Positions 2,606 to 31,205 of a DNA stretch of 64,000 bases are shown in pieces. Source of the DNA: Sandaracinus amylolyticus (lineage in GTDB: Bacteria; Myxococcota_A; Polyangia; Polyangiales; Sandaracinaceae); the NCBI RefSeq assembly GCF_000737325.1, contig NZ_CP011125.1, forward strand, positions 434,001 to 498,000. Reading direction: 5' to 3'. The notes beneath the pieces were generated by a model. That model was not told where the DNA came from. It searched no databases and saw nothing but the letters and a program-made list of their open reading frames with translations. A program made the translations under genes and the position numbers. Each line of letters starts with the position of its first letter. Within the stretch, counting starts at the first letter, position 1.

Positions 2606-2651
2606 GCACGGGATCGTACCCGCGGCCTCGCCGCGATGCGATGATGCGCGC

Positions 2652-3602
2652 ATGTCGCGGCGCGCGAACGACCCCGCCGAGCTCGCGCGCGGGCTCGACG
2701 TCGAGGACCTCGCGGCGCTCGAGCGCGCGCGCGACGCCGCGTGCGCGCGGCCGATCTCGTACGTGCTCGGCAGCGGTGAGGCGGACGAGGTCGCGCTTCA
2801 TGCGGGCATCAAGCCGCTGGTGCGGCAGGTCGTGCCCGACGATGCCGCGGCACCGACCCGGGCGCGGTTCGAAGCGCTCGGGCTCGCGGTGCGCGAGGCG
2901 CTCCATCGTGTCGACACCGCGACGACGCGGGGGCGCGTGCTCTTCGTCGCGCGCGATCCGCGTCGTGCCGAAGCGGCCGCCGCGATCGAGGCCGAGCCGG
3001 AGCACGACGTCGAGCTCGGGAAGCTGCTCGGATATCCGCGCTGCTGCGTCGAGGCGTACCTCGCGGCGCCCCCGCCGCGCGAGAACCTCGATGTGCTCGC
3101 GCGCGCCGCGCACGGCGTGGGGCACGCGCGCCTGAACGTGCTCGATCTCGCGGTGTTCCACTACGTCTCGTGGATCCCGTGCTCGCTCACCTGCTCGCTC
3201 TCGCTCGCGTACGCCGACGCGGTCGCGACGCACATCGCGAAGCGCCACGGACAGCTCGTGGGACGCGCCGTCACGCGCTGTCCGCCCGGATGTCGTCACG
3301 AGGTCTTCGTGCGCGAGATCGATCGCGCGCTCTCCGCGCATCGCATCGTGCTGTTCGAGGACGTGCAGCTCTCGGTGCGCGGCGCGGTCGAGCGCGACGT
3401 GGTGCGCGTGGACGCGCTCTGGCCCACGGCGCGCGATCGTCACCCCGACGCGATGCTCGACGACGCCGCGCTCGAGGCGGTCGCGCGCGTGATGGTCGCG
3501 CTCGAGGGCGCGCGCACGCTCGCGGTGCACGACGGGACGCTGTTCGCCGACGAGCGCGCGCTCGTGAGCACGCCTCGCGCTGCGCTCTATCGCTTCTCGT
3601 AG
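2652..3602 (+). CDS. DUF483-family protein
   Basis: A 316-residue cytosolic protein starting at ATG 2652. Around residue 125 it carries LGKLLGYPRCCVEAYL, the Cys-Cys signature of DUF483 proteins, whose function is not established. Further Cys residues follow (PCSLTCSLS near 178 and CPPGCRHEVF near 215), a set that could bind metal. The same signature recurs inside the 1070-aa radical SAM protein at 18553, linking this free-standing copy to the locus. It diverges from the gene ending at 1604, and its 3' end overlaps the convergent radical SAM gene by 16 bases. The family assignment rests on the GYPxCCVE motif; any catalytic role would be a guess. Confidence 0.75.
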   Translation: MSRRANDPAELARGLDVEDLAALERARDAACARPISYVLGSGEADEVALHAGIKPLVRQVVPDDAAAPTRARFEALGLAVREALHRVDTATTRGRVLFVARDPRRAEAAAAIEAEPEHDVELGKLLGYPRCCVEAYLAAPPPRENLDVLARAAHGVGHARLNVLDLAVFHYVSWIPCSLTCSLSLAYADAVATHIAKRHGQLVGRAVTRCPPGCRHEVFVREIDRALSAHRIVLFEDVQLSVRGAVERDVVRVDALWPTARDRHPDAMLDDAALEAVARVMVALEGARTLAVHDGTLFADERALVSTPRAALYRFS

Positions 3603-5434
3603 CGCAAGAGCCACTGGTTCGCGGTGCCGGGCCCGACGTCGTGCCGCTCCCGCAGCACCAGCGCGCTCGTCGCGCCCTCGATCGTGCGCGCCGCGCGATC
3701 CGCGTCGTCGTTCCGGTAGTGCTCGAAGCGCGCGGGACCGCGGTGCGCGACGTGGGTCTGGCCCCGGGTGCGCGCGAGCCCGAACGCGACGTTGTCGACG
3801 ACCAGCAGCGATCCTCCGACGCGCAGCGCGTCGACCACCCGCTGCACCACGCGCGACGGGTCGGCGAGGTGGTTCCAGCTCCGCAGGATCAGCGCGTGAT
3901 CGAAGGTGCGATCGACGACGAACGTCTCGCCCTCGCCGCGCACGAGCGTCGCCCACGGCCAGCGCGCGCGGAGCGCGTCGAGATCGGCGTGGGGATCGAC
4001 GCCGACGTAGCGCACGCGCCCGCTCGTCGCGCGCGGCGCCCACACGTCCTCGTAGGGTCCCTCGCCGCACCCGAGATCGAGCACGTCGCCCTCGAGCGCG
4101 CGCAGCACGTCGCGCACCCGTGCGTCGTCGCGCGTGAACGGATCGTCGTCGAGCGCCGGCTCGAACATCCCGGTGCACGTGTCGCGATGCGCGCATCCGT
4201 CGCACAACGTCGAGCGACGCAGCGGGCGCAGATCACGCGCGAAGTCGTCCGGCGCGGGCTTGCGCGACACGTCGAGGTAGAGCTGCCCGAGCGCGTGTTT
4301 GGTGCGCGCGATCTCCACGTCGGCGAAGTCGCGCGTGTCGCTGCGGAAGCGCGCGACGCGATAGCCGCCCTCGCCGCGGTTCCGCACGAAGAGCTCGCGC
4401 CCGCGATCCCACGGGATGACGCCGAGCTCGCCGTCGCGCAGCGGACAGTGGGCCTCGCTCGCGTCGGTCGCGACCTGCGACTCGAACGTGTAGGTGAACG
4501 AGTTCGAGCGCGGCGCGGGCTCGGGCGCGCGGATCTCCTCGACGCCGAACTGCTCGGCGTACCCGCGGAAGAGCCCGGGGCACGGGCCGCGCTTCGGGCA
4601 CCCGCCGCAGATCTCCTCGGGCTGCACGTTGAGCGCTTCGTCGACCGGGAAGAAGTCGGGCTCGCCGATGTCGCACATCGTCGCGAAGCGGTGCGTCTTG
4701 AGATCGTCGTAGAGCGGCTCGAGCCCGGGGAGCAGACAGTGCGGGATGCCGTCGTGCCCGAACGTCGGGCCGCTCGCGCCGCGCTTCGCGACCTGCTCCT
4801 GACCGTGTCGGATCGCGCGCGCGGCCCGATCGGCGACGTCGGAGACGCGTGGCGTGATCGCGTCGAACAAACGTTTCCCGCCACCCTTCGGCTGCACCAT
4901 CGAGAACTTCAGGCGCAGATCGGGGTAGGGCAGCAGCGCGTCGACGAGCGGGATCAGGTGCTCGAGGTTCTGCTGGGTGACGACGCAGTTGATCGTGAGA
5001 TCGAGCCCGCGCCCCGCGAGGTTCTGCACCGCGCGATACGCGGCTTCCCACGCCTCGCTGCGCACCAGCCGATCGTGAATGCGCCCCACGCCGTGCAGCG
5101 ACATGTACACGTAGCGCAGGCGTCGCTCGAGCAGCGCGTCGAGCTTCTCGGGGTACGCGAGCACGAGCCCGTTGGTCACGAGCCCGACGTCCATCCCGAG
5201 GCGCGCGGTGAGCGATGCCCACTCGAGCAGCTCGCCGCGGATCGTCGGCTCGCCGCCCGAGAACACGACCATGCCGTGCCCGAGCTGCTTCGCGCGATGG
5301 ATCTTCGCCACGACCTCGGCGCTCGCGCCGTCGATGTGGCGCACCTCGGCGGTGTGGCAGAAGGTGCAGTTCTCGTTGCACCCGTAGCCCACCTTCACGA
5401 GGGCCTTGCGGCCTCGCCATCCGCTCGCGATCAC
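3587..5434 (-). CDS. Radical SAM protein fused to C-terminal methyltransferase
   Basis: A 615-residue protein from a GTG that overlaps the upstream stop as GTGA, implying translational coupling. Residues 19, 23 and 26 form the CX3CX2C cluster ligand set (CNENCTFC). VVFSGGEPTIRGEL supplies the GGE motif and LVTNG and MSLHG follow on later barrel strands. Two Cys modules of the CX2CX5C type, CGGCPKRGPC and CDGCAHRDTC, suggest auxiliary iron-sulphur clusters as in twitch/SPASM domains. From about residue 445 a class I methyltransferase follows (VLDLGCGEGPYED, VGVDPHAD, then a GGSLLVVDN strand). The family binds SAM and a [4Fe-4S] cluster for radical chemistry; a second, conventional SAM-using domain in the same chain is notable. 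Substrate unknown. Confidence 0.85.
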   Translation of the reverse strand: MIASGWRGRKALVKVGYGCNENCTFCHTAEVRHIDGASAEVVAKIHRAKQLGHGMVVFSGGEPTIRGELLEWASLTARLGMDVGLVTNGLVLAYPEKLDALLERRLRYVYMSLHGVGRIHDRLVRSEAWEAAYRAVQNLAGRGLDLTINCVVTQQNLEHLIPLVDALLPYPDLRLKFSMVQPKGGGKRLFDAITPRVSDVADRAARAIRHGQEQVAKRGASGPTFGHDGIPHCLLPGLEPLYDDLKTHRFATMCDIGEPDFFPVDEALNVQPEEICGGCPKRGPCPGLFRGYAEQFGVEEIRAPEPAPRSNSFTYTFESQVATDASEAHCPLRDGELGVIPWDRGRELFVRNRGEGGYRVARFRSDTRDFADVEIARTKHALGQLYLDVSRKPAPDDFARDLRPLRRSTLCDGCAHRDTCTGMFEPALDDDPFTRDDARVRDVLRALEGDVLDLGCGEGPYEDVWAPRATSGRVRYVGVDPHADLDALRARWPWATLVRGEGETFVVDRTFDHALILRSWNHLADPSRVVQRVVDALRVGGSLLVVDNVAFGLARTRGQTHVAHRGPARFEHYRNDDADRAARTIEGATSALVLRERHDVGPGTANQWLLRYEKR

Positions 5435-6564
5435 GCTTCCCACGACACACCCGCGGGCTTCGCGAGATCGAGCGCGAGGTGCGTCGCGTGGAGCGCCTCG
5501 AGCTCGTCGATCAGCGCTGCGCCGATGCGCGTCGGCCTCGCGTGCTCGCGCACCGTGCGGAGGCCCTCGTCGTTGCGCGCGATCACGTCGGCGAGCCGCG
5601 ACTGGATGCGAACGTCGCCCGCGGCGAGCATGCGGCGATAGAGCTCGGCGACCGGCACGAACGCGTGCACCGCGAGCAGCACGCCCCAGATGGGCCGGAG
5701 ATCGGGGCGCACCGGCGACCGCACCATCGTGCCCAGCGCGTTCTCGAGCAGCGCGTCGTGGTACGAGGCGAGGTTCGCCTTGTTGTGCTGGAACTCGTGC
5801 ACGATCGCCTCGGCCATCGTGCGCACGTCGGGGTGCAGCGTCAGGTAACACGCGCCGACGTACTCGCGGTACGACGCCGAGAGGTGCTTCTCGGGCTCGT
5901 AGCCGACCGGCACGAGCACCATCGAGAGCGCGCGCATCTCGTCGACGAGCTCGGGGAGATGTCGCTCGACGATCGCGAGCGCCTCGCGCAGCGACGCGAT
6001 CCACTCGTGCGGATCGCGACCGCCGAGCGAGAGCGCGTTGCCCTGCTTGTCGGGGTGCGCCTCGACCATCGCGAGGGGGTTCGCGTCGTAGGTGGCGAAG
6101 CGGATGCCGGGGCGCAGCGCGACGAACTGCTCCGGAGCGATCGCGTCGAGCGCGACCGTGCGCCCGTCGACGTCGATCGCGCGCGACGAGAGCGTCATCC
6201 GCGCGCCGGAAAAGATGGCACCGAGTGCCAGATTCGCGACGCGCCTCCCTCGCACTTCGTAGCGCCCCGGGAGCGCACCGCGCCGCGCGAGCTCGAGCGC
6301 CCAGGCATCGGCGGCGTCGTCGTGGCGGCCGCATCGCGCGAGCACGCTCGCGATCGGATCGGCGAGCACAGAGGCCGCGTCGTCGGGCGCGCTGCGCGCG
6401 AGATCGGCGAGGGGTCGCGCGATGCGCAGATCGCCGGTCGCCGCGTGCGCCTTGAGGAGTCGCCACGCCTCGGCGCGACGCAGCTGGAGCAGCCGGCGCG
6501 GCGGCTCGTGCTCGGGCGGGAGCACGAGCCCGGTGCTGGGCGCGTGGGCTTCGGCGGCGCTCAT
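5431..6564 (-). CDS. HExxH-motif protein, peptide beta-hydroxylase type
   Basis: A 377-residue protein whose ATG overlaps the stop of the upstream radical SAM gene (ATGA) and whose stop overlaps the next radical SAM start (GTGA), so three genes are coupled. The clearest signature is IVHEFQHNKANLASYHDALL with His256, Glu257 and His260. This context matches the HExxH domain found with radical SAM peptide maturases of the FxsB type, members of which NCBI names alpha-ketoglutarate-HExxH-type peptide beta-hydroxylases. The alternative reading is a zinc metallopeptidase. The upstream half (RPLADLARSAP...) looks helical, and a beta-rich stretch precedes the motif. There is no signal peptide. Coupling to two radical SAM genes favours a peptide- or protein-modifying role; this is inference. 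Confidence 0.75.
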   Translation of the reverse strand: MSAAEAHAPSTGLVLPPEHEPPRRLLQLRRAEAWRLLKAHAATGDLRIARPLADLARSAPDDAASVLADPIASVLARCGRHDDAADAWALELARRGALPGRYEVRGRRVANLALGAIFSGARMTLSSRAIDVDGRTVALDAIAPEQFVALRPGIRFATYDANPLAMVEAHPDKQGNALSLGGRDPHEWIASLREALAIVERHLPELVDEMRALSMVLVPVGYEPEKHLSASYREYVGACYLTLHPDVRTMAEAIVHEFQHNKANLASYHDALLENALGTMVRSPVRPDLRPIWGVLLAVHAFVPVAELYRRMLAAGDVRIQSRLADVIARNDEGLRTVREHARPTRIGAALIDELEALHATHLALDLAKPAGVSWEA

Positions 6565-8423
6565 TCGGCGGCGATGCTGGTCTCGACGATCGGGCGCATG
6601 AGGCCGTAGCCGTGGGCGCGCACGTAGTTCACGTGCATCCCTCGGCACGTCGCGTCGTGCACGCACGTCCGACAGCGCAGCGCCTTCGTCATGTAGCCCG
6701 ACTCGATGTGGCGGCGCGTGAACCGGAAGATCTCGAGCGCGCCCTCGGCGGAGAGCATCGACGCGTCGAGCGTCGCGGGCTGCGCGCGCGGCGCGCGACC
6801 GATCACGCACGCGGGCACGTCGATCACCGGCACGTCGTGGCGGAACGCGGCGAAGAACGCGGGCAGATCGACGTCCTCGCTCGCCGACTCGGTGAGCCGC
6901 TCGTGCGTCGGCTGTCGGAGCACGAGGCGCGCGGGCGGCGACGCCATCGCGAGCAGCCACGGCTGGGTGCGCGTGGTGAGCGCGACCACGACGTCGAAGC
7001 CGTGCGGCGACGCGAGCAGCGTCTCGGCGTCGGCGACGTCCTTCACGTGCACCGCGATCACGCGGCGACCGTCGAGGTGATCGCCGTCGAGCGCCGCGAG
7101 CAATCCGTCGATCGATCCGAGCTCGAGCTCGACGTCGGTCAGCGCCCGATGCGCGGCGATCGCCTCGCGAGCGCGCGCGAGGTCGGGCGCGACGATCCAG
7201 CCGCAGGTGATCGACGCGGCGCCGATGCGCTCGTCGAGCGTGCGCGGCTTCACCGCGTGGGTCTTCGCGGCGAGCGCGCCGACGATCGGCAGCGCGCGCT
7301 TCTGCGGCTTCTCGCTCTCGGCCTCGCCCTCGGCGGGACCGCCGAAGTGGATCGCGCGCTTCGCGCTCGCGGGGTCTCCGCCGAACACCACCGGCCGATT
7401 GCGCTCGGCCTCGGTGTCGATGCGCACGCGCGATACCGCGTCCGCCGCGAGGCGATCACGCTCGTCGTAGAGGTGGTTGCAGAGCTGCTCGAGGTAGCAG
7501 TAACGACAGCGACCTTCTTTTTCGCGACAGTCGAGGTCCTCGCCGGTCGCGAGCAGGCGCGCGAACTCTTCCTTTCGCCCGCGCACCTCGTCGTTGAGCT
7601 TGTAGGGGTCCTGGATGAGGTGCTCGAAGCCCTCGAGGTGCGGCGGCGGGAAGCGGTTGAGCCAGATGTGCATCCCGGGGCGCTTCGTGTACTCGAAGGC
7701 CTCGCGCAGGTACGGCTGCATCTCCTCGAGGTCGTAGAAGAGCGTGGTGCGCCCCTCGGTGAACGCGCGACCGAAGGGGACGACCTGCAGCAGATCGAAC
7801 TCGTGCACGCCCCACGAGATGAAGAGATCGAGCATCTCCTTGAGGTGCTTCACGTTCGCGCGGTTGATCACGATGTCGACGTTGACGATCGGTCGACCGG
7901 TGCGATCACGCGTCGCGATCGCGCGGCGCAGCCCCGCGCTCTCCTGCTCGAACGCGCCCTTCACGCCGACGAGCGCGTCGTGGATGCGCGCGTTCGGGCC
8001 GTGGAGCGAGAACGTGATCTCGTCGAGCCCCGCGGCGATGCAGCGATCGAGGAAGTCCTGGTACTGGAAGAGCCGGCCGTTCGTGACGGTCTGGATCTTC
8101 GTGTAGCCCGCGAGCTTGCCGAGCTTGATGAAGTCGACGTAGCTCGGATGGATCGTGGGCTCGCCGCCCGAGAGGATGAGGCGCGTCGCGCCGGCCTTGC
8201 GGCCCTCGAGGATCTGCTGCTTCACCTCGTCGCGATCGCGCATGCGACCGTCGTGGGTGTCGGAGTCGAGGCAGAAGACGCAACGGTTGTTGCACTCGAA
8301 GGTGAGCCGCACCCAGTTGCGCTTCTCGTGCGCCGCTTCTTCGTGCGAGACGACCTTCTCGATCGTCTGCGGCTCGCCGAGCGCGATCCTCACGTCGGAT
8401 GCAGGCACTGCCGAGGAGCTCAT
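6561..8423 (-). CDS. Radical SAM protein with degenerate second barrel and Cys-rich tail
   Basis: A 620-residue protein. The ATG at 8423 is chosen over one at 8516 because the extra 31 codons have non-coding-like third positions (AGA, GTA, GCA, GTT). Cys44, Cys48 and Cys51 form CNNRCVFC; LILSGGEPTIHPSY, TVTNGR and FSLHGPNARIHDALVG give the standard MoaA-like barrel. A first Cys set (CREKEGRCRYCYLEQLC) ends this half near residue 325. The second half, from about 390, alternates strands and helices like a barrel but lacks a CX3CX2C motif. It ends with CRTCVHDATCRGMHVNY and the tail GYGLMRP shared with other locus members. The stop overlaps the next start (ATGA). Product unknown. Confidence 0.85.
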   Translation of the reverse strand: MSSSAVPASDVRIALGEPQTIEKVVSHEEAAHEKRNWVRLTFECNNRCVFCLDSDTHDGRMRDRDEVKQQILEGRKAGATRLILSGGEPTIHPSYVDFIKLGKLAGYTKIQTVTNGRLFQYQDFLDRCIAAGLDEITFSLHGPNARIHDALVGVKGAFEQESAGLRRAIATRDRTGRPIVNVDIVINRANVKHLKEMLDLFISWGVHEFDLLQVVPFGRAFTEGRTTLFYDLEEMQPYLREAFEYTKRPGMHIWLNRFPPPHLEGFEHLIQDPYKLNDEVRGRKEEFARLLATGEDLDCREKEGRCRYCYLEQLCNHLYDERDRLAADAVSRVRIDTEAERNRPVVFGGDPASAKRAIHFGGPAEGEAESEKPQKRALPIVGALAAKTHAVKPRTLDERIGAASITCGWIVAPDLARAREAIAAHRALTDVELELGSIDGLLAALDGDHLDGRRVIAVHVKDVADAETLLASPHGFDVVVALTTRTQPWLLAMASPPARLVLRQPTHERLTESASEDVDLPAFFAAFRHDVPVIDVPACVIGRAPRAQPATLDASMLSAEGALEIFRFTRRHIESGYMTKALRCRTCVHDATCRGMHVNYVRAHGYGLMRPIVETSIAAE

Positions 8424-8553
8424 CGACGACGATGCTACCAGAACGCGTCGTCCGATGGCTCTCGGGGTGCTCTCGCCGGCGGCGTTCTTCGTGGGCGCGC
8501 GCAGCGTGGTCCCCATGCGTGCGCCGCGTGCTCGGGTACGCGCCGTCTCCGCG
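8424..8553. other. Gap between membrane-protein gene and radical SAM gene
   Basis: A 130-base gap between two minus-strand genes in an otherwise tightly packed locus. It includes an ATG-initiated in-frame extension of the radical SAM gene (from 8516) that looks non-coding. It may hold a promoter for the three coupled downstream genes, but I see no convincing -35/-10 pair. Confidence 0.4.
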
Positions 8554-10809: not shown

Positions 10810-10887
10810 GGCGCGCCGCGAGGATAGACCGGACCCGCGCGATCTGCGCTCGCACCGCGCCGCGTTCTCGGCGACAATCGCAGCGGG

Positions 10888-13188
10888 ATGTCGCGCGCCC
10901 GCACCCTGATCGTTCATCCGCCCACCACGATCGCGCGGGACTTCATCGACTATCCGTATTTCTCGGACCTCGGCGCGCTGCAGCTCGCGGCCGTGCTCGA
11001 CGCGCCGGTCGTCGATGCGTTCGCGCTGCCGGGGAGCACGCTCTCGTGGCGCGCCGACGGCCGCGCGCATCTCGGCGCGAGTGTGGACGAAGTGCTCGCC
11101 GCGGTGCGCGCGAAGGGCACGTTCGACACCGTCGTCGTCGCGTACACCCCGTTCCATCGGCCTCCGCATCGCTGCGACGTGCTCGGCGCGCTGCTCGCGG
11201 GGCTCGACTGCGAGCGCATCGTGCTCGCGGACTGCTTCCAGTCGGGCCAGCACTACGTCGAGGTGCCGGGCGAGTCGGTGCTCGCGTCGTACCCCGAGGT
11301 CGCGGCCTACGTGAAGTACGAGGCCGAGCTCACGGTGCCGCGAGTCGTCGAGGAGCGCGGCCGCGGCGTGTTCCGCGGGGAGTCGCCGCGCCTCGACGAG
11401 CTCCCGCTGCCGGCGTGGGATCGCATCGATCTCGCGAGCTACTTCCGCTTCCACCAGCGTGTCGTCGCGAACCTCGGCCGTGCGGCGTGGGCCTTTCCGA
11501 TCGACGGGCGCACGATCCCCGTTGTCACGTCGCGCGGCTGTCCGTTCTCGTGCGCGCACTGCAGCTCGAACCCCGAGCGCCTGCCCGGCGAGCCCAAGAA
11601 GCAGCGCCGTCCTTCGCCCGAGCGCCTCGGCGAGACGCTGCGCGCACTGAAGGAAACGACCGGTGCGACGCGGCTCTTCGTGCTCGACGAGCTGGTCAAC
11701 GTGAACGAGCGCCACTTCGACGCGTTCCTCGCGTCGATGCGCGAGCTCGATCTGCGCTTCGAGCTGCCCAACGGGATGCGCGCCGACTACCTCGAGCGGC
11801 GTCACCTCGAGCTCATGAAGGGACGCGTCACGACGGTGAGCGTCAGCGCGGAGAGCGGCTCGCCGCGCGTGGTCTCCGACGTCGTCGGCAAGCAGCTCGA
11901 TCTGCGCGACATCGCGCGCGTCGCCGAGGACGCGCACGCCGTCGGGGTCGAGCTGCTGATCCACTACATGATCGGCCTGCCCGGCGAGACGCGCGAGGAG
12001 ATCAACGAGACGCTCGCCTTCGCGATGGACCTCTGGGATCGCTTCCGCGCGTTCCCCGCGGTGCAGTTCGCGACACCGCTCCCGGGCACGAAGCTCGCGC
12101 ACGAGGTCGAGCGACGCGGTCGCGCGCTGCCGATCGTCGAGGACTGGGGCCCGGTGTTCCAGCACGGCCCGCGGAGCGAAGAAGAGCGCGCCGGCGACGT
12201 GTCGCTCGCGGTGCTGCGCGAGTTCAAGGAGACCCTCGATCGACGTCTCCGCGCGTCGAGCGGCCCCGAGAAGCTGATCGTCAACCTCACCTATGCCTGC
12301 AACAACCGCTGCACGTTCTGCGCGGTGGGCACGCGCACCCAGCTCCACGGCCACACCGAGAGCCAGCACGAGCACCTGCGCGAGTACCGCGCGCGCGGCG
12401 TGACGATGGTCGACTTCGACGGCGGCGAGCCCACGCTCCACCCCGATCTGATCACGACGGTCCGCTACGCGCGATCGATCGGCTACGAGCGCGTCAACGT
12501 CACGACCAACGGCCGCATGGCGTTCTACGAGGGCTTCGCGAAGAAGCTCGTGCGCTCGGGGCTCACCTCGCTGCTCTTCAGCGTGCACGGGCCCGACGCC
12601 CAGTCGCACGCGCAGCAGGTCGGCGTCGCCGAGGCGTTCGAGCAGACGACCGGTGGGATCCGCAACTGCGTCGCGCACGCGCCGCCCGGCGTCGAGCTCG
12701 GGATGAACGTCACGCTCACGAAGTCGAACACCGACAAGCTCGAGCAGCTCGCGCAGCTCGCGTGGGACCTCGGGCTGCGGTGGATCAACATCCAGTTCCT
12801 CACGCCGTTCGGGCGCGCGACGCGGATGATCGCGCCGGACACGCAGTACGCGGCGGACGTGACGCGCGGCGTCATCGAGCGGTGGCGCGATCGCATGAAG
12901 GTGCAGGTCATCAACCTGCCGTTCTGCTTCCTGCCCGGGCTCGAGGCGCACCTCGAGGGCGATCTGCTCAAGCTCGCGCGGCACATGATCTTCGTGAACA
13001 ACGAGGACGTGAACCTCGCGCAGTACCTCGCCGAGCGCCGGGTGCGGAAGCCGGTGTGCGAGGGCTGCACGCGCGCGGTCTTCTGCGGTGGGTTCTACGA
13101 GCTCGACAAGGTGCCCGAGCCGCCGTGGCTCGTGAGCGTCGACGATCTCGTGAAGAAGAAGCCCGCGAGCATCGACGCCGCGGAGTGA
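10888..13188 (+). CDS. Tandem radical SAM protein with N-terminal B12-binding-like domain
   Basis: A 766-residue protein from ATG 10888. Residues 1 to about 150 resemble the Rossmann-like cobalamin-binding domain of B12 radical SAM enzymes (VHPPTTIARDFIDYPYFSDLGALQLAA), but no DxHxxG cobalamin-ligand motif is visible. The first radical SAM domain has C218/C222/C225 (RGCPFSCAHC) and the elements VSVSAESGSP and HYMIGLPGET typical of the Elp3/MiaB-like barrel. The second, MoaA-like domain has C471/C475/C478 (CNNRCTFC), DFDGGEPTLHPDL, TTNGR and FSVHGPDA. The tail has CEGCTRAVFCGGFYEL, a CX2CX5C auxiliary-cluster pattern. Two different barrel types in one chain is uncommon. The next radical SAM gene follows after 38 bases on the same strand. 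Confidence 0.88.
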   Translation: MSRARTLIVHPPTTIARDFIDYPYFSDLGALQLAAVLDAPVVDAFALPGSTLSWRADGRAHLGASVDEVLAAVRAKGTFDTVVVAYTPFHRPPHRCDVLGALLAGLDCERIVLADCFQSGQHYVEVPGESVLASYPEVAAYVKYEAELTVPRVVEERGRGVFRGESPRLDELPLPAWDRIDLASYFRFHQRVVANLGRAAWAFPIDGRTIPVVTSRGCPFSCAHCSSNPERLPGEPKKQRRPSPERLGETLRALKETTGATRLFVLDELVNVNERHFDAFLASMRELDLRFELPNGMRADYLERRHLELMKGRVTTVSVSAESGSPRVVSDVVGKQLDLRDIARVAEDAHAVGVELLIHYMIGLPGETREEINETLAFAMDLWDRFRAFPAVQFATPLPGTKLAHEVERRGRALPIVEDWGPVFQHGPRSEEERAGDVSLAVLREFKETLDRRLRASSGPEKLIVNLTYACNNRCTFCAVGTRTQLHGHTESQHEHLREYRARGVTMVDFDGGEPTLHPDLITTVRYARSIGYERVNVTTNGRMAFYEGFAKKLVRSGLTSLLFSVHGPDAQSHAQQVGVAEAFEQTTGGIRNCVAHAPPGVELGMNVTLTKSNTDKLEQLAQLAWDLGLRWINIQFLTPFGRATRMIAPDTQYAADVTRGVIERWRDRMKVQVINLPFCFLPGLEAHLEGDLLKLARHMIFVNNEDVNLAQYLAERRVRKPVCEGCTRAVFCGGFYELDKVPEPPWLVSVDDLVKKKPASIDAAE

Positions 13189-13226
13189 GATCGGTCGCGC
13201 GCGCACGGGTGTGTTAGACACGTCGT

Positions 13227-16706: not shown

Positions 16707-16720
16707 GGCGGCTCACGATT

Positions 16721-17008
16721 CTACGGGATCGGCGCGACCGCGCGTGCGCCGAAGAGCGCGTAACGCTTCGTGACGTCGACCGCGAACGGCTCGCGCGAGC
16801 GCGGCGCGAGGTGCGCGCGCGCGAACGGCGAAGGTGCGCCGAGCACCAGATCGAACCCGTCGTCCGAGGGCTCCACCGCGACCAGCGTCAGCCCGAAGCG
16901 CGGCAGCGGCTGCGGCAGCGCCGGCGGACCCACCAGCGCGCGCGCGATGGCGACCCGTCGCTCGTGCGCCGCGTCGTCGGCGTTCGGAGGATCGCGGAAC
17001 GAGGCCAT
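16721..17008 (-). CDS. Small hypothetical protein in radical SAM locus
   Basis: A 95-residue protein from ATG 17008 (MASFRDPPNADDAAHERR). The frame extends upstream to 17218, but there it overlaps the region in front of the divergent membrane-protein gene and looks non-coding. The body is short beta strands: RFGLTLVAVEPSDDGFDLVL, FARAHLAP, FAVDVTKRYALFGARAVAP. It has no Cys, no signal peptide and no family I recognise. Position 14 bases before a tandem radical SAM gene suggests co-expression, so it could be a partner, recognition domain or substrate. None of these is shown by the sequence. Confidence 0.55.
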   Translation of the reverse strand: MASFRDPPNADDAAHERRVAIARALVGPPALPQPLPRFGLTLVAVEPSDDGFDLVLGAPSPFARAHLAPRSREPFAVDVTKRYALFGARAVAPIP

Positions 17009-17186
17009 GCGCGAGCAGCACGTTCGCCCGGCGATCCGCGTCGCGTCAACACGCGTGACACCGTGGCGATCGCTTCGCGCGGGCGCTGACGCGTTGGCAC
17101 CACCGCGCCGACGCGACCACGCGATGCGCGGGATCTCGCGCTGGCACCGCGCGTGCTCGGGCCGCGTCGCACCCGAGGAGGTCGTC

Positions 17187-18506: not shown

Positions 18507-18552
18507 TCGTGATGGTGGTGCCCGCGGTTCTCGGCCTATCATCGCGGGCGTC

Positions 18553-21500
18553 GTGGCGTCGAAGATCGCAGTGCTGGATCTGCGTGCGCGATCCGACGTG
18601 TTCCTCGGGGATCGCGGGCTCTCGCGCATCGCGGAGCGCCTCGAGCGCGCGGGGCACGAGGTCGCGCGGCTCGACGCGACCTGGCCCGCCGACGCCGCGC
18701 AGCGGGGCGCGTTCCTCGAGTCGCTCGCGCGCGACGTCGGAGGGCGCGCGCTCGACGCGCTGGTGGTCGAGCGCGCGTGGGACGCCGAGACGCTCGACGT
18801 GCTGCGCGGTGCGCTCGGTGGCGGCAAGCTGGTGCGCCTCGCGGGCGGTGTGCGCGCCGCCCTCGACGATCGGTTCGACGCGGTCGTCGACGAGAACGGC
18901 CTGCGCGCGCTGCTCGCGGGCGACGTGGTGCCCGAGCCGGCGCGGCCGCCCTCGAGCGCGAAGGAGATCCGCGCGCTCCGTGTGCTCGCGCACGACGAGA
19001 TCGAGCCCGAGCACGCCGGGGCGCTCCCCGCGATCCGCGGCCCGGCCGTCGGCTGCCCGTACCTCGTGGACGCGGCGAAGCAGGCCCCGTTCGCGAAGCT
19101 CGCGCTCGACCGCGAGAAGGTGCAGACGCGCGGCTGCACGTTCTGCCTCGACAACACCGGCGCCTACGCGGCGGTGAACGGGGACGAAACGGTGACACGC
19201 TGGCTCGCGCAGCTGCGCACGCTGCGCGCGTCGCGGCCCGACGGACGCCTCGAGGTGCTGCTCGTCGACGAGCGCCCGCACCCGCACCTGCCGCAGCTGT
19301 TCCGCGCGGTCGCCGCCGAGGGCGCGCTCGGCGCGATCGAGCTCTTGATCAAGAGCCGCGTCGACTGGCTGCTCGAGCACGAGGCCGAGCTCGCGGAGGC
19401 GTGCACGATCGCCGAGACGAGCGGGAGCGTGGTGCACGTCTATCTCGTCGGGTTCGAGAGCTTCGATCCCGACACGCTCGTGCTCTTCAACAAGGGCACG
19501 AGCGCCGAGGACAACGTGCGCGCGATCGCGCTGCTGCGCGATCTCGCGGCGCGCTTCCCGCGCAGCTTCGAGCACCGGCGGCTGCGCGCGCACGGGTTCG
19601 TCGCGTTCACGCCGTGGACCACGCCCGAGGCGCTGCTCACCAACGCGCGGAGGATGCGCGAGGTCGGGTTCGACGAGCTGCGCGCCGACGCGGCGCGCAC
19701 GCGCCTGCGGCTCTATCCGCGCACGCCGCTGCACGCGCTCGCCGAGGCCGATGGGCTGCTCACGCCCTCGTTCGACGCGACGCGTGGTGATCGCGCGGCC
19801 GAGCAGGGCTACGACGCGAGCTTCGCGTGGCGCTTCGCCGATCCGCGCGTCGAGGCGATCTTCGCGATCTGCGAGGCGCTGCGCGAGCGATGGCGCACGC
19901 TGCCCGACGCCGATCGGCTCGAGCTCGCGACGCGCTTCGTGCTGCGGTGGCCGGGCCTCGCGAGCGTGCCCGACGTCGCGCACCTGCCCCTCGTCCACGT
20001 GCTCGACGCGTGGGACCTCGATCCGCGCACGCTCTCGTCGACGCTCGGTGCGGCGGCGATCGTCGATCTCGAGCTCGAGCGGCTCGTCGCGGGCCACAAG
20101 CGCGGGCTCCTGAAAGAAGGTGTCGCGGCGCGCGACGTGGACGGCCTGATCCGCGCGTATCGCGCGACGGGCCTCGTGGCCGCGGTGGTCGAGACCCACG
20201 ACATCGACGCGAGCGGGAGCAAGCACCTCGAAGGTCGCTCGCACGCGATCGTCGCGGTCGCGCGCACCGATGACGATCTCGCGGAGATCGTCGCGCTGCA
20301 GCGCGCCCGCGACACCCGCGCGATGGGCGCGCGGATGGGCTATCCGACGTGCTGCGTCGAGGCGTTCCTCGCGCAGCCGGACCGCCGCGACAACGTCGAG
20401 AACGAGCGCGCGACGCTGCGTCGCACCGGAGCGCGCGCGATCGACGCGCGCGTCGTGCGCACCGGGCCGGTGCGACTGCTCTCGCACCACCCGTGCAGCG
20501 GCGACTGCGCGGCGTCGATCGCGATCGCGGAGCAAGCGCTCCAGCATCTCGCGGCGATCGATCCGCGCGGTGCGAGGTGGGCTCGCGAGACCCTCGCACG
20601 TCCGTCGCTCTTCCTCGATCACGCGCGCTCCGCGCTGCTCGAGGGTGCGTGGCGCGGCGATCGCTTCGAGGTGCGCGCGATCGACGACGTGCCGCGACGC
20701 TCGCTCGGCGTGCGTCACGACGACGTCGTCGCGATCGAGCTCGCGCGTGATCGCGTGGTGCTCATCGACGCGCGCGGTGATCGCACGGCGATCGCGGCGT
20801 CGTCGCCGCTGCTGATAGTGCCCGGCGAGCCGCTCGCGCTCGCGGCGCGCGCGGTGATCGCGCCGTCGCTCCCGGTCGCGCTGTCGACGCGCCCGAAGTG
20901 GCTCGAGCTCACGCCCGACTACCGCTGCAACCAGCGCTGTCTCGGGTGCGGCGTGATGAACGAAGGCGGCCCCTCGCTCTCCTCGCGCGATCTCGTGAGC
21001 GCGATGATCGACGGACGCCGACAGGGCATCGAGCAGCTGTGGATCGGCGGGGGCGAGCCCACGCTGCGACGTGACCTGCTGCCGCTGGTGCGCGAGGCGC
21101 GCGCGCGGGGCTACACGCGGGTGCGTCTCCAGACGAACGCCGCGATGCTCGCGTATCCCGAGGTCGCGCGCCGTCTCGCGGACGCGGGCGTCACCGAGAT
21201 CGCGGTCTCGATCAAGGGCGCCGACGCGCTCACCCACGACCGCTTCGCGCGCACCGAGGGCGCGTTCGAGCTGCTGTGTCGCGGCATCGAGCACGCGCGC
21301 GCCGTCGGGCTCGAGGTCGAGGGCGACGTGCTGGTCTATCGCTCGACCACCCCGACGATCCCCGACGTCGTGCGCGTCTTCTCGGCGCGCGGCGTGGCGC
21401 GCTTCCGCCTCTGGATGATGGCGCCCGACGCGTCCGATCCCGCCGCGCTCGCAGAGGAGCCGCGCATCGCCGACGTCGCGCGCGCGGTCCACGACGCGCT

Positions 21501-21765
21501 GGCACACGGCGAGGTCGTCTCGCTGCACACGCCGCCGTGTGCGCTCGACGACGGCGACGCGCGCGCGCGCTTCTTCGCGCCCGAGCTCGGCCTGCTGGTC
21601 CACGACGCGACGGGCCGACGCTTCCGCCTCGAGCGCTCGGAGATCGAGGGCGGCGCGTTCGCGCCGCGTTGCGACGGATGCGCGCTCCGCGCGCGCTGCA
21701 ACGGCGTGCGCGCGTCGTACCTGTCACGACACGGCGAGGCGGAGCTGCGACCGAGGCGCGGGTAA
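18553..21765 (+). CDS. Multidomain protein: degenerate radical SAM, DUF483 and C-terminal radical SAM
   Basis: A 1070-residue protein from a GTG. Residues 1-150 look like a Rossmann-type B12-binding-like domain. A radical SAM-like barrel follows, but its cluster motif is reduced to GCTFC (C195, C198), with Gln where the first Cys should be; Cys in VGCPYLVD, about 22 residues earlier, is the only nearby substitute. Elp3/MiaB-like strands follow (VYLVGFESFDPDTLVLFNKG). Near residue 597 is the DUF483 signature GYPTCCVEAFL, then HPCSGDCAAS. The C-terminal MoaA-like domain has C792/C796/C799 (CNQRCLGC), IGGGEPTLRRDLL and LQTNAA, closing with CDGCALRARCNGVRASY and SRHGEAELRP. In effect it fuses the free-standing DUF483 protein to two barrels. 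Function unknown. Confidence 0.88.
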   Translation: MASKIAVLDLRARSDVFLGDRGLSRIAERLERAGHEVARLDATWPADAAQRGAFLESLARDVGGRALDALVVERAWDAETLDVLRGALGGGKLVRLAGGVRAALDDRFDAVVDENGLRALLAGDVVPEPARPPSSAKEIRALRVLAHDEIEPEHAGALPAIRGPAVGCPYLVDAAKQAPFAKLALDREKVQTRGCTFCLDNTGAYAAVNGDETVTRWLAQLRTLRASRPDGRLEVLLVDERPHPHLPQLFRAVAAEGALGAIELLIKSRVDWLLEHEAELAEACTIAETSGSVVHVYLVGFESFDPDTLVLFNKGTSAEDNVRAIALLRDLAARFPRSFEHRRLRAHGFVAFTPWTTPEALLTNARRMREVGFDELRADAARTRLRLYPRTPLHALAEADGLLTPSFDATRGDRAAEQGYDASFAWRFADPRVEAIFAICEALRERWRTLPDADRLELATRFVLRWPGLASVPDVAHLPLVHVLDAWDLDPRTLSSTLGAAAIVDLELERLVAGHKRGLLKEGVAARDVDGLIRAYRATGLVAAVVETHDIDASGSKHLEGRSHAIVAVARTDDDLAEIVALQRARDTRAMGARMGYPTCCVEAFLAQPDRRDNVENERATLRRTGARAIDARVVRTGPVRLLSHHPCSGDCAASIAIAEQALQHLAAIDPRGARWARETLARPSLFLDHARSALLEGAWRGDRFEVRAIDDVPRRSLGVRHDDVVAIELARDRVVLIDARGDRTAIAASSPLLIVPGEPLALAARAVIAPSLPVALSTRPKWLELTPDYRCNQRCLGCGVMNEGGPSLSSRDLVSAMIDGRRQGIEQLWIGGGEPTLRRDLLPLVREARARGYTRVRLQTNAAMLAYPEVARRLADAGVTEIAVSIKGADALTHDRFARTEGAFELLCRGIEHARAVGLEVEGDVLVYRSTTPTIPDVVRVFSARGVARFRLWMMAPDASDPAALAEEPRIADVARAVHDALAHGEVVSLHTPPCALDDGDARARFFAPELGLLVHDATGRRFRLERSEIEGGAFAPRCDGCALRARCNGVRASYLSRHGEAELRPRRG

Positions 21766-21818
21766 TCGGTCCGGTGGTACCCTCGCGTTCGTCGCCCGCG
21801 ACCGGCGGAGGAGGACGC

Positions 21819-22109
21819 ATGGACGATCGTCTCGACGAGATCCTCGATCGGCTCCGCGAGCTCGATCATCGCCTCGCCACGCTCGAGGGGCGTCGTGGGC
21901 ATCACGAGCCGCGCTGCCACGCGTGCGGCGCGCCGCGCGGCGGACACCGCGGGCGTCACCGCGAGCACGAGCGCCGCGGCGGCGGCGACTTCGACGAGAA
22001 GCGCGTGATCGACACGATCGTGCGGCTGGTGTGCGAGAACGTCGCGCCGATCGTCGAGGACGTCGTCGCGCGCGAGCTCGATCGACGCCTCTCGCGTCGC
22101 GAGCCCTGA
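21819..22109 (+). CDS. Small Cys/His/Arg-rich protein, candidate substrate or metal-binding partner
   Basis: A 96-residue protein with a strong ribosome binding site (GGAGGAGG) five bases before ATG 21819. Residues 1-25 form an amphipathic, probably coiled-coil helix (MDDRLDEILDRLRELDHRL). Residues 26-56 are disordered and rich in His, Arg and Gly with a CHACG motif. Residues 57-96 form a second helix with one Cys (IVRLVCENVAPIVEDVV). It lies 7 bases before the next radical SAM gene and 53 bases after the previous one. As the only tiny, low-complexity, Cys-bearing protein in the locus it is a candidate for the modified substrate. However, its special segment is central rather than C-terminal, and a metal-binding role is equally possible. 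Confidence 0.7.
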   Translation: MDDRLDEILDRLRELDHRLATLEGRRGHHEPRCHACGAPRGGHRGRHREHERRGGGDFDEKRVIDTIVRLVCENVAPIVEDVVARELDRRLSRREP

Positions 22110-22116
22110 ACGAACG

Positions 22117-23892
22117 ATGTACGTCGCGTGCTTCGAGATCCGGCGGAAGCCCTCGGACGTCGTGCTCGCCGAGCTGCGCGCGCGCATCGCCGGCGCGGTG
22201 TCGCGAGGCGCGCGCACCATCGTGATCTCGGGGGAGGGCGCGACCGAGGGCGTCACGCGGGTCGCCGATGCGGCGCGCGGCGCGTCGCACGTCGATCTCG
22301 TGATCGACGAGGGCGCGTCGGTCGCGCCGTCGTCGCTCGGCGCGCTCGTCGAAGTGGGGGTGACGCGGCTCGTGCTGAGGGTGCTGCGTCGTGATCCGCG
22401 CGCGATGATCGAGCTCGCGCGCGCGTGGCGAGCGCTCGGTCGAGACGTCGTCGTGCAGCTCCCGATCGAGCCCGGCGCGCCCTCGGCCCAGCAGCGCCTC
22501 GCCTGGCTGCGCCGCGCCGCGCCCGAGCTCGATCGCGTCGAGCTCGCGCCGCGCGCGATCGGCACCGCGATCGCCGACGACGTCGCGCGGGCCGAGGCCG
22601 ACGCGCGCAAGGCGAAGATCGAGCTCTCGCTCGCGAACGATCACCCGCTGCCGCCCTGTCTCGTGGAGCTCGCGCCGCACGCGCGCCGCCTGCTCGCACC
22701 GCGCTTCCGCGACGTGCTCCCCGGCCGTCCCGGCGCCGAGGCCGCCCGTCGCAACGACGCCCACGAGGCGTGCGGGACGTGCGCGCTCGCCGAGCTCTGC
22801 ACGATCACGAGCGCGGAGCTCGAGCGCCTCGCGGGCGACACGATCACGCCGCGCCCGATCGCCGACGCGACGCCCTATGCGCGTCCCGGTCGCAACGCCG
22901 GCAAGCGCCTGCGCGTGCTCGGCGCGAACGACGTGAAGACGTTCTTCCACGTCGACTACGACTACGCGCCGATCGGTGACGGCGCGGCGCACGAGCGCCC
23001 GACGAGCCGCATCGGGCTCGTCTATCGCTGCAACCAGACGTGCACGTTCTGCGAGCTCGCCGACATGGACGTCGATCTCTCGAAGGACGACGTACGCGCC
23101 GCGCTCGATGCCGCGCGCGCCCGCGGATCGACGCGCGTGATCCTCACCGGCGGCGAGCCGACGCTGAGCCGTGACCTCGTCGATCACGTGCGCTACGCGC
23201 GCTCGATCGGGTTCGAGGAGATCGAGCTGCAGACCAACGCGGTGCTCCTCGACAAGCCGGGCGCCGCGCGCGCGCTCGCCGATGCGGGCCTCACCAGCGC
23301 GCAGGTGTCGCTGCACGGGCCCGACTCCGCGATCAGCGATCGCCTCACCGCCGCGCCCGGCACCCACGCGCGCACGCTGCGCGGCGTCGACGCGCTGCTC
23401 GAGGCCGGCGTGCGCGTGCTGCTCAACCACCTGATCTTCGTCGACAACGCGCCGCTGCTGCTCGACTTCGTCGACCTCGTCGTGACGCGATGGAGCGCGC
23501 GTCGCGATCGCCTCGTCGTGCAGTTCCACTCGCCGCGCAACGAGTTCGCGACGCGCGAGGAAGGCCTGCGCCACGTGCCGCGCTACTCCGACTACGCGAC
23601 GCGCTTGCGCGCGGCGATCGATCGCGCGCGCGCCGCGGGCCTGAACGTACGCGATCTGCAGGATCCGACGGGCATTCCGTCGCTCTGCGTGCTCGGCGCG
23701 GACGCGAGCTACCTCGGGACCATCACCGCGCAGCGCACGCTCCCGCGTTATCACGCGTGGGAGTCGGACTGGCTCACGCGCGTCGCCGCGTGCGAGCCTT
23801 GCGCGATGCGCGACGCGTGCATGGGTGTGCCGAAGCACTACCTCGCGCTCCACGGTGACGCGGAGTTCCGGCCTTTCACGGAGGGCACGTAG
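22117..23892 (+). CDS. Radical SAM protein with degenerate N-terminal barrel
   Basis: A 591-residue protein. The N-terminal 230 residues alternate strands and helices like a radical SAM barrel (TIVISGEGATEG sits where SGGEPT would be) but have no CX3CX2C; the half closes with CGTCALAELC. The C-terminal domain is complete: C305/C309/C312 (CNQTCTFC), ILTGGEPTLSRDL, LQTNAVL and SLHGPDSAISDRLTAAPGTH. It ends with CEPCAMRDACMGVPKHY and ALHGDAEFRP. The arrangement matches the two-barrel protein at 14901 with its first cluster lost. The stop TAG shares a base with the next gene's GTG (TAGTG), so translation is probably coupled. Confidence 0.88.
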   Translation: MYVACFEIRRKPSDVVLAELRARIAGAVSRGARTIVISGEGATEGVTRVADAARGASHVDLVIDEGASVAPSSLGALVEVGVTRLVLRVLRRDPRAMIELARAWRALGRDVVVQLPIEPGAPSAQQRLAWLRRAAPELDRVELAPRAIGTAIADDVARAEADARKAKIELSLANDHPLPPCLVELAPHARRLLAPRFRDVLPGRPGAEAARRNDAHEACGTCALAELCTITSAELERLAGDTITPRPIADATPYARPGRNAGKRLRVLGANDVKTFFHVDYDYAPIGDGAAHERPTSRIGLVYRCNQTCTFCELADMDVDLSKDDVRAALDAARARGSTRVILTGGEPTLSRDLVDHVRYARSIGFEEIELQTNAVLLDKPGAARALADAGLTSAQVSLHGPDSAISDRLTAAPGTHARTLRGVDALLEAGVRVLLNHLIFVDNAPLLLDFVDLVVTRWSARRDRLVVQFHSPRNEFATREEGLRHVPRYSDYATRLRAAIDRARAAGLNVRDLQDPTGIPSLCVLGADASYLGTITAQRTLPRYHAWESDWLTRVAACEPCAMRDACMGVPKHYLALHGDAEFRPFTEGT

Positions 23893-25841
23893 TGCATCGC
23901 CTGGCCGTGATGCCGCGCTGCGCGACGCCGTGCGCTGCGTGTGATGCGTGCGCGCCGACGGGTCGCCCCGCGACGCTCGTCGAGGCGCGACGGCTGCTCG
24001 ACCACGACGAGGTCCTCCTCGGCGGCGGCGACGCGACGGCGTGGCCCGCGCTCGATGCCTTCCTCGCCGAGGCGCGCGGACACCGCGTGTGGCTCGAGGC
24101 GCCCGCCGCGTCGCTGACCCACGAGCGACTCCGCGCGCTGCGCGACGCGGGCGTGCACGGCGTGCTCGTGCAGATCGAGGGCGTGGGCGAGAAGCTCCTG
24201 CGCGCGATGCGCGCCGGCGACGGAGAGCGCGTCATCGCCGACGCCGAAGCGCTCGGCCTCGAGACGCAGGCGCGCGTCATCGCGCGCCCGGCGACGTTCC
24301 CGATGGTCGCGCCGCTCGCGATGCGCCTCGCGCCGCGCGTGGTGTGGCTCGAGCTCGTGCGACGCGACTGGGGCAAGCCCGAGATCGAAGCATCGCCGTC
24401 GTCGATCGCGCGGCTCTTGCTCGCGTGCCCGAACGTGAGCTTCTCGGGCCATCGTGCGCTCGACCGCGGCTATCTCCCGCCGTGCACGCTGCCGAGCGTG
24501 TGGGCCGCGCGACCGACCGCGTTCCGCACCACGCTGAAGGACGGAGCGCGCGACACTCCGAACACCACGCTCCCCGCGTGCGGCGAGTGCGCGCTGCGCA
24601 GCTCGTGTCGCTTCGCCGATCGCGGCGCGCTGTCCGATGACGACGCGGGCGCGGCCGAGGCGATCCGCGACGCGGTGCTGCCCTGGACGCGCATGCGCAC
24701 GACGCAGCAGCAGGTCCCCGCGGCGATCACGAGCAAGCGCCGCGGCCCCGACGTGATCTGCACCACGCCGTGGACGACGATGGAGGTCGTCGATCCCAAC
24801 GGGCTCGTCCGGCAGTGCTGCTCGACGTGGACGATCGGCGATCGCGGCAACGTCCACCACGCGTCGCTCGGCGCGATCTGGAACGGCCCGGGGTACCAGC
24901 TCGCGCGGCGGCAGATGATCGGCAGCGATCACGGCGCGCTCTGCCATCCGATCTGCTCGCGCCTGCACGATCGCAAGTACGACGAGCAGGCGTTCCGCAT
25001 CCAGACCGGCAGCGAGGCGTTCGTCGCGAACCAGCTGCAGATCGCCGACGACATCGCGGAGCGCCGCGAGGTCGTGCGCAGCAAGCCGCTGCGCCTCGCG
25101 ATCTGCCCGAGCACGTACTGCAACTACGACTGCATCATGTGCGACCTCGGTCGCACGCCACGGCGCGAGCTCCCGGAGTCGATCTGGGAAGAGCTGCCCG
25201 AGCTCCTGCCGACGCTGCAGACGCTGACGATGCTCGGCGGCGAGCCGCTCGCGAATCCGTCGACCATGCGTTTTCTGCGCGAATTCGACGTCGCGAAGTA
25301 TCCCGACTGCGCGATCGACTTCGTCACCAACGGCTCGCTCCTCACCGAGCCCGTGCTCGCGCGCATGCAGCGCTGCACGCTCGGCGACGTGACGATCAGC
25401 CTCAACGCCGGCACGCCCGACGTGTACGAGCGCGTGCAGCGCGGCGTCGAGATGTCACGCGTGCTCGAGAACCTCGACGCGCTGATCCGATTCAGGGGTC
25501 GACACCACCGGTGGTTCGGCATCACGGTGAGCTTCGTGGTCCAGCCCGCGTCCGCCCACACGCTCGTGCAGTTCGGGGAGATCGCGCACGCGCGCAACCT
25601 CCGCATCCGGCTGATGGCGCTGAACCCCGAGAACCACGAGGGCCTCGACTTCTATCCCGACGGCGACGCGGTCGCGAAGGTGCTGCGCGAGGTGGACGTG
25701 TTCGAGCAGTGGGCCCGCCGGGTGCGCCCCGAGTGGCTCTCCGAGATCCGCGCGACGCGCGCCGCGGTCGCGGCCGAGGCAGCGTCGCGCGTCCGCACGA
25801 GCGTGCCCAGCGGCGCACGTCGTCTGCCCGTGGTGGCGTGA
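23892..25841 (+). CDS. Two-barrel radical SAM protein with SPASM-like central segment
   Basis: A 649-residue protein from a GTG overlapping the upstream stop. The N-terminus has CATPCAACDAC, in which C10/C14/C17 fit CX3CX2C, followed by LLGGGDATAWPAL in the GGE position; this half closes with CGECALRSSC. A central segment (CTTPWTTMEVVDPNGLVRQC, then NVHHASLGAIWNGPGYQ and CHPIC) strongly resembles a SPASM-type auxiliary-cluster domain. The C-terminal barrel has C410/C414/C417 (CNYDCIMC), MLGGEPLANPSTMRF and FVTNGSLL. Finding a SPASM-like unit before rather than after a barrel is unusual and suggests that it belongs to the first, partly degenerate barrel. It ends 3 bases before the next gene. 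Confidence 0.85.
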   Translation: MHRLAVMPRCATPCAACDACAPTGRPATLVEARRLLDHDEVLLGGGDATAWPALDAFLAEARGHRVWLEAPAASLTHERLRALRDAGVHGVLVQIEGVGEKLLRAMRAGDGERVIADAEALGLETQARVIARPATFPMVAPLAMRLAPRVVWLELVRRDWGKPEIEASPSSIARLLLACPNVSFSGHRALDRGYLPPCTLPSVWAARPTAFRTTLKDGARDTPNTTLPACGECALRSSCRFADRGALSDDDAGAAEAIRDAVLPWTRMRTTQQQVPAAITSKRRGPDVICTTPWTTMEVVDPNGLVRQCCSTWTIGDRGNVHHASLGAIWNGPGYQLARRQMIGSDHGALCHPICSRLHDRKYDEQAFRIQTGSEAFVANQLQIADDIAERREVVRSKPLRLAICPSTYCNYDCIMCDLGRTPRRELPESIWEELPELLPTLQTLTMLGGEPLANPSTMRFLREFDVAKYPDCAIDFVTNGSLLTEPVLARMQRCTLGDVTISLNAGTPDVYERVQRGVEMSRVLENLDALIRFRGRHHRWFGITVSFVVQPASAHTLVQFGEIAHARNLRIRLMALNPENHEGLDFYPDGDAVAKVLREVDVFEQWARRVRPEWLSEIRATRAAVAAEAASRVRTSVPSGARRLPVVA

Positions 25842-28368: not shown

Positions 28369-28384
28369 GCCGGAGGCCGCGCAC

Positions 28385-29785: not shown

Positions 29786-29899
29786 TCGCGGGTCCGTCGC
29801 CGACGACCAGAGCACGTGCTCGGGCTCGCGTCGCGCCACCTGCGCAGTCGCGGACCTCCAATGCGCGACGTTGAAGGGCGCCTCCATGCGGGGCCATTC

Positions 29900-31186: not shown

Positions 31187-31205
31187 GGGGCGGCGCCATT
31201 ACGCG
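31187..31205 (-). promoter_or_regulatory. Copy of shared copper-region upstream element
   Basis: On the minus strand this reads CGCGTAATGGCGCCGCCCC, about 40 bases before the cupredoxin start and overlapping the ATPase stop codon. It matches related GTAATG-plus-GC elements before other copper genes here. It could be a regulator site or a promoter element; no regulator is identified. Confidence 0.3.

Follow-up and report, generated by a model that had tools for sequence, protein, structure and literature searches.

What unites a series of radical S-adenosylmethionine (SAM) proteins that lie close together in the genome of Sandaracinus amylolyticus and share a cysteine module, CX2CX5CxG, and what do they act on? 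The proteins are encoded in a stretch of 64,000 nucleotides (contig NZ_CP011125.1, positions 434,001 to 498,000; hereafter the window) and are labelled as in Table 1, with N and C added for the halves of a protein. We consider it fairly likely that they belong to an enlarged set of HxsC-type enzymes that matures one repeat peptide, HxsA4, the module being the auxiliary domain of HxsC and the locus a His-Xaa-Ser (Hxs) locus.

A preliminary description of this DNA had quoted the recurring module from seven proteins or half-proteins, and a six-frame search recovered all 12 of its quoted strings without a mismatch, each in frame with a real gene. Across the 16 gene products of the window CX2CX5CxG occurs eight times, against a mean of 0.01 and a maximum of 1 when the residues were shuffled 500 times across the same products. 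All seven listed modules are present and the list was one short: a regular-expression scan found an eighth, CETCVVRDRCAG, in the N-terminal half of the tandem protein w7. CX2CX5C without the final glycine occurs at three further places, in w9N, in w10N and at residue 296 of w3. A fourth cysteine, usually as P-x-C (variants include VPLC, LPFC, IPHC, TPPC, PPPC, LPPC and VPAC), lies 21-69 residues upstream of nearly every site, the exceptions being the second site of w1 (EAHC, 81 residues upstream) and residue 296 of w3 (none). Its presence at nearly all sites argues that the unit is a four-cysteine auxiliary-cluster domain. The closing tail, Y-x3-[HYF]G-x2-[EL]-x-P, was scored with a profile from other genomes only and compared with 200 tail shuffles per site. 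It stood above all shuffles at seven of eleven sites (w1 first site, w3, w6, w7N, w7C, w8 and w9C), so that the shared tail described earlier is real in these seven, and not above them at the other four (w1 second site, w5, w9N and w10N). One tail, YVDRFGDDELRP, had been listed as the continuation of a module; it exists, and belongs to w6, a protein with a respaced CX5CX5C.

When 61 radical SAM domains, drawn from the window and from scan-detected loci, were aligned, the SAM-cluster cysteines C20, C24 and C27 were invariant, as were C263, C266, C272 and G274, and P231-x-C233 was kept at 90% or more. We infer that P-x-C, some 20-70 residues ahead of CX2CX5CxG, completes the four ligands of one cluster; the conservation of the four cysteines makes the earlier proposal of a single auxiliary cluster per unit plausible. 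Alignments of the AlphaFold2 model of w7C (mean predicted local distance difference test score, pLDDT, 91.8) with SuiB, anSME, CteB and ChlB span the auxiliary domain and run to residues 282-291 (Z 16-18). The four conserved cysteines and these twitch/SPASM fold neighbours would fit a twitch domain, a truncated SPASM domain that binds one auxiliary cluster. The twitch/SPASM maturases of ribosomally synthesized and post-translationally modified peptides (SkfB, SuiB, CteB and ChlB) would have the same core and auxiliary fold as predicted here, with a seven-cysteine SPASM motif in place of the four-cysteine P-x-C plus CX2CX5C of the window.

The family to which the unit belongs is indicated by HxsC. 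Models of HxsC4 and HxsC from NCBIfam are among the best matches of most window domains, each time far under the cut-off. Of the top 25 NCBIfam models in the w7C listing, the HxsC model TIGR03977 (residues 16-274 of 292) alone enters the module; all the rest stop at residue 233 or earlier. A search of the same genome for HxsC4 (NF038332) found a true member some 15 kb to the left of the window, and relatives on both sides; like the window proteins it has a radical SAM core, an upstream P-x-C, the module and the tail (Y-x3-YG-x2-EF-x-P), closing with CAQCKHEKSCEG...YLKRYGWDEFVP. Compared with HxsC4, the window proteins add B12-type radical SAM, methyltransferase and tandem or degenerate halves. 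Canonical HxsC, taken from two Novosphingobium plasmids with one HxsC in each of the two operons, likewise has an upstream cysteine and a C-terminal module (CEGCAAQGECGGFF and CATCEVRNDCAGFF), ending in CX2CX5CxGFF. Since both HxsC4 and canonical HxsC carry it, the module is, on this comparison of sequences, a trait of HxsC, i.e., the C-terminal auxiliary domain of HxsC-type enzymes, and the closing tail seems to belong to the HxsC branch found here. We define the HxsC-like superfamily as a radical SAM CX3CX2C core followed by P-x-C and CX2CX5CxG. The definition covers w1, w5, w7N, w7C and w8; w9C deviates in having PSLC for P-x-C, the w3 C-half, w9N and w10N lack the core, and w6 is respaced.

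The window represents the right half of a single His-Xaa-Ser locus of about 46 kb, in which the Hxs gene set is complete. HxsA4 is a peptide of 86 amino acids that contains HC, then 11 His-Gly-Ser units and then W. Several synonymous codons in its array encode an unchanged peptide, as expected of selected coding sequence. It is the sole recurrent repeat peptide found in the neighbourhoods examined, and the small proteins recurring around w5 (64 loci) were only HxsD, HxsD-like, a protein of about 142 amino acids and a few unlinked ones. One open reading frame, 21819-22109(+) (96 amino acids, with CHACG and HRGRHREH), sits between two radical SAM genes and resembles a precursor; we rejected it as a separate precursor for the window enzymes because a search of seven neighbourhoods turned up no match to it.

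The association with Hxs extends across genomes. In a survey of 284 genomes of the phylum, the module profile was found in 115 and HxsB in 98, and all 98 HxsB genomes have the module. Among the 102 genomes with two or more modules, 97 have HxsB (Fisher 1e-68, inflated by shared ancestry). The w3 C-half occurs in 86 genomes, 82 of them with HxsB (2e-49, inflated likewise); in at least 39 genomes it is no more than 25 kb away from HxsB. A second survey, of 184 genomes of the order, covered w5, HxsC4, HxsB and His-Gly-Ser arrays: 51 of the 53 genomes with w5 have HxsB and 52 have the arrays, as do all 53 genomes with full-length HxsC4 matches; the six HxsB genomes without arrays all lack w5 and HxsC4. 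The reversed repeat pattern, used as a control, was nearly empty. Within four genera (g12, g18, g76 and g83) w5 and HxsB vary in step, some species having both and some neither. The Hxs system attributed to Haft and Basu in a passage of PMC9062424 has, as here, an HxsA-type repeat precursor with HxsB, HxsC-type and HxsD proteins; here, however, there are up to 16 HxsC-like modules per genome rather than one (copy numbers in the phylum survey are lower bounds, with no more than 25 candidates scored per genome), accompanied by an HExxH hydroxylase, a methyltransferase and B12-type fusions.

Could the module be no more than the CX2CX5C of ordinary, otherwise unrelated radical SAM proteins, shared by superfamily descent? 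The motif does sit in the published SPASM motif, CX9-15GX4C-gap-CX2CX5CX3C-gap-C (PMC6231123), as the preliminary description had said, and the radical SAM cores match many families. However, Pfam SPASM (PF13186) matches none of the modules; its sole match lies elsewhere, at residues 290-352 of w10 (28.8 bits; w10 also matches Radical_SAM at 1e-23, and NF033640 under its cut-off). The module profile is not general to radical SAM proteins: its ten matches in the same genome at E < 1e-6 comprise eight in the locus and two relatives elsewhere, with none of the genome's other SPASM proteins, and it follows HxsB nearly perfectly across the 284 genomes. Profile specificity and co-occurrence together led us to discard the generic motif, which we regard as very improbable. 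Less credible still is recent tandem duplication within the locus, for which the many paralogues in one place might speak. The unit had been described as a local family expanded by duplication; it is not local, its profile reaching far beyond this type of locus and HxsC4 sharing module and tail outside the window. Identity is 48-65% to orthologues from other families, orders and classes (54-56% for those of w1 in other families, which carry both modules), against 22-34% among the window paralogues. In a quick tree of 73 domains, with some long branches, w1, w3, w5, w7N, w7C, w9 and w10 group with their orthologues, mostly at 99-100 in the Shimodaira-Hasegawa-like approximate likelihood-ratio test (SH-aLRT); w8 and w6 are less securely placed, w6 beside two module proteins encoded elsewhere in the genome. 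Identities and tree rule out recent local duplication for w1, w3, w5, w7, w9 and w10, and the window enzymes can be regarded as a large, ancient family.

The tail had been thought to dock a shared protein partner, and it is kept across paralogues and orthologues. The w7C model, however, confidently places it within the ordered structure of the auxiliary domain, as a helix (277-283) and turn with blocks of residues 271-292 at pLDDT 86-94; the tail is missing in w5, w9N and w10N and different in canonical HxsC, and a separate accessory domain of about 90 amino acids is a better docking candidate. Docking through the tail is thus unsupported, and we find it improbable. Somewhat more weight, though still well short of likely, goes to the possibility that the window enzymes are HxsC relatives serving another peptide or small-molecule product and are only carried or regulated together with Hxs. 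Genes resembling an epimerase, a glycosyltransferase, an aminotransferase-methyltransferase, three PhyH-like proteins and a NodU-like protein do lie among or beside the Hxs genes, and w3 and w5 are distant from HxsB in some genomes. Against this, those genes are not recurrent in most other neighbourhoods, whereas HxsA4, HxsB, HxsC4 and HxsD are; no other small precursor-like family was seen to recur around w5 in the 64 loci, and just one of the 53 w5 genomes is missing the His-Gly-Ser array.

Several observations weigh against maturation of HxsA4 by the whole set. No window enzyme reaches the cut-off of HxsC or HxsC4: the best score with the HxsC equivalog TIGR03977 is 135 bits over two domains and 87.3 for a single domain (cut-off 267.9), and with the HxsC4 model the window proteins score 38-145 bits against 500. 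The tail of the Novosphingobium HxsC is not the Y-x3-HG-x2-E-L-x-P of the window, and a sequence search of the PDB with the module profile gave no meaningful match to a solved structure. The module occurs without HxsB in 17 of the 284 genomes, mostly as a single copy, and in two genomes (G150 and G085) several of these genes are far apart. Fisher values assume independence and are inflated by the common ancestry of genomes from one phylum; co-occurrence itself is no proof of a common substrate.

With HxsA4 as the common substrate, HxsB and HxsC4 would begin modifying its His-Gly-Ser repeats, and the other HxsC-like enzymes would then add further modifications on the same peptide. This second group would include the fusion of B12-type and HxsC-like domains, the methyltransferase fusion and the halves with only auxiliary cysteines, and the HExxH hydroxylase would join in modifying the repeats. 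The order and kind of these reactions we infer from the gene set; some ten such enzymes probably act on the peptide.

Part of the set may work without cleaving SAM. The w3 C-half has no CX3CX2C in 35 orthologues, all of which keep the four auxiliary cysteines and R213, G216 and P222 of the tail. Profile-profile comparison aligns it with the module and the latter half of the radical SAM core (probability 96, E 3.8e-9). Its model (pLDDT 92.7) gave weak fold matches to triosephosphate isomerase (TIM) barrels, the best at Z 7.6, with no radical SAM entry among the matches listed, so that the model gives no structural proof of a dead radical SAM barrel. Taken together, descent from a radical SAM core plus module is likely from the profile alignment and is not shown by the fold. 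Judged by eye, the N-halves of w9 and w10 have a like pattern, with the auxiliary cysteines and no core motif. From these three halves, loss of SAM cleavage seems to leave the auxiliary site in place.

Scanning named genomes for w5 gave 78 loci, nearly all in Myxococcota or allied 'Deltaproteobacteria' records (genera include Sandaracinus, Nannocystis, Polyangium, Plesiocystis, Enhygromyxa and Minicystis) and one in Elusimicrobia. A Kofleriaceae-type contig (G255) holds, in about 35 kb, HxsB, HxsD, HxsC4 and orthologues or relatives of w1, w3, w5, w7 and w8, together with relatives of two enzymes from outside the window. The Elusimicrobia contig (CAIRTQ010000041.1; L141) encodes an HxsA4-type peptide whose HGS array is long, together with a w5 relative (38%); their joint occurrence suggests that the system was transferred outside Myxococcota.

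Table 1. Features of the locus. Positions are those of the window unless marked as genome positions; cut-offs are the curated ones of each model.
Feature	Position	Strand	Description	Support
HxsC4	genome 418236-419306	-		NF038332, 631 bits (cut-off 500)
HxsA4	genome 419303-419563	-		NF038313, 102.5 bits (cut-off 55)
HxsB	genome 419600-421207	-		TIGR03978, 533 bits (cut-off 370)
HxsD-like	genome 421204-421431	-		NF038315, 65 bits (cut-off 41)
HxsD	genome 421428-421949	-		TIGR03976, 52.2 bits (cut-off 50)
Conserved locus member	2067-3602	+	GYPxCCVxA segment common to w8	tblastn, 54% to Minicystis
w1	3587-5434	-	HxsC-like radical SAM and auxiliary domain, second Cys module, C-terminal methyltransferase domain	Pfam Radical_SAM 4e-22, Methyltransf_11 1e-7
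w1 first module	4574-4609	-	CGGCPKRGPCPG, tail ...YAEQFGVEEIRA	
w1 second module	4169-4204	-	CDGCAHRDTCTG, without tail	
Hydroxylase	5431-6564	-	alpha-ketoglutarate HExxH-type peptide beta-hydroxylase	NCBIfam TIGR04267, 84.9 bits (cut-off 40)
w3	6561-8393	-	radical SAM N-half; C-half without CX3CX2C, keeping four Cys and tail	alignment of 35 orthologues
w3 module	6639-6674	-	CRTCVHDATCRG; tail HGYGLMRP at 6591-6614	
w5	10888-13188	+	B12-type radical SAM domain fused to HxsC-like radical SAM domain	
w5 module	13057-13092	+	CEGCTRAVFCGG, GGF ending as in canonical HxsC, without tail	
w6	13227-14900	+	divergent radical SAM, respaced CX5CX5C; tail at 14859-14894	
w7	14901-16706	-	tandem of two HxsC-like radical SAM domains	Pfam, two Radical_SAM stretches
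w7N module	15915-15950	-	CETCVVRDRCAG	
w7C module	14958-14993	-	CARCSLASRCYG; tail HGASELRP at 14910-14933	
w8	18553-21765	+	large protein, HxsC-like domain at C-terminus	
w8 module	21670-21705	+	CDGCALRARCNG; tail HGEAELRP at 21730-21753	
w9	22117-23892	+	N-half without CX3CX2C, with P-x-C and CX2CX5C (22771-22800); C-terminal HxsC-like radical SAM	
w9C module	23791-23826	+	CEPCAMRDACMG; tail HGDAEFRP at 23851-23874	
w10	23892-25841	+	N-half with LPPC and CX2CX5C (24579-24608), SPASM-type stretch, then radical SAM	

Other genes of the region were noted in passing. The GYPxCCVxA segment links w8 to the conserved locus member at 2067-3602 (BLAST 1e-7), w8 shows weak DUF483 similarity, and a conserved partner is present in Minicystis. 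The accessory domain of about 90 amino acids, unnamed in the Pfam and NCBIfam versions scanned, is found repeatedly, in L020 (genome 415001-434400), L161 and L162. It is C-terminal in one HxsC-like enzyme and two B12-type radical SAM proteins, N-terminal in two module enzymes elsewhere in the genome and partial in the open reading frame 1604-2095(-); its role may be to bind a leader or a partner. In among the Hxs genes or next to them, sequence reading found look-alikes of a nucleoside diphosphate (NDP)-sugar epimerase, a glycosyltransferase and a DegT-type aminotransferase-methyltransferase. Also near them are three proteins that look PhyH-like by eye (genome 421994-422752, 426744-427544 and 427510-428298; L020), with 33-38% mutual identity, and a NodU-like carbamoyltransferase (genome 402820-404661; L019). 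Right of the locus, genes resembling by eye a metal P-type ATPase (31199-33514(-)), a small heavy-metal-associated protein (38169-38396(+)) and outer-membrane efflux (26935-30730(+)) apparently form a separate metal-resistance region.

The literature searched mentions Hxs proteins only in passing, and in it we came across no description of what the His-Xaa-Ser system produces. A tentative thought is that some ten or more radical SAM enzymes elaborate one His-Gly-Ser peptide into a cofactor or a redox- or metal-binding polymer found across Myxococcota, and that members which lost the SAM-cleaving cluster keep the auxiliary cluster as a scaffold for peptide handling or electron transfer; the w3 C-half offers a test case for an auxiliary cluster working without its own SAM-cleaving site. 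The sequence signature sets the Hxs-linked enzymes apart from most radical SAM proteins, and w3, w5, HxsC4 and HxsB, with the precursor HxsA4, form a concrete set that can be tested together. In one phylum, then, Hxs comes with many HxsC-like enzymes whose occurrence follows that of HxsB, and the repeat peptide would be their obvious common substrate.

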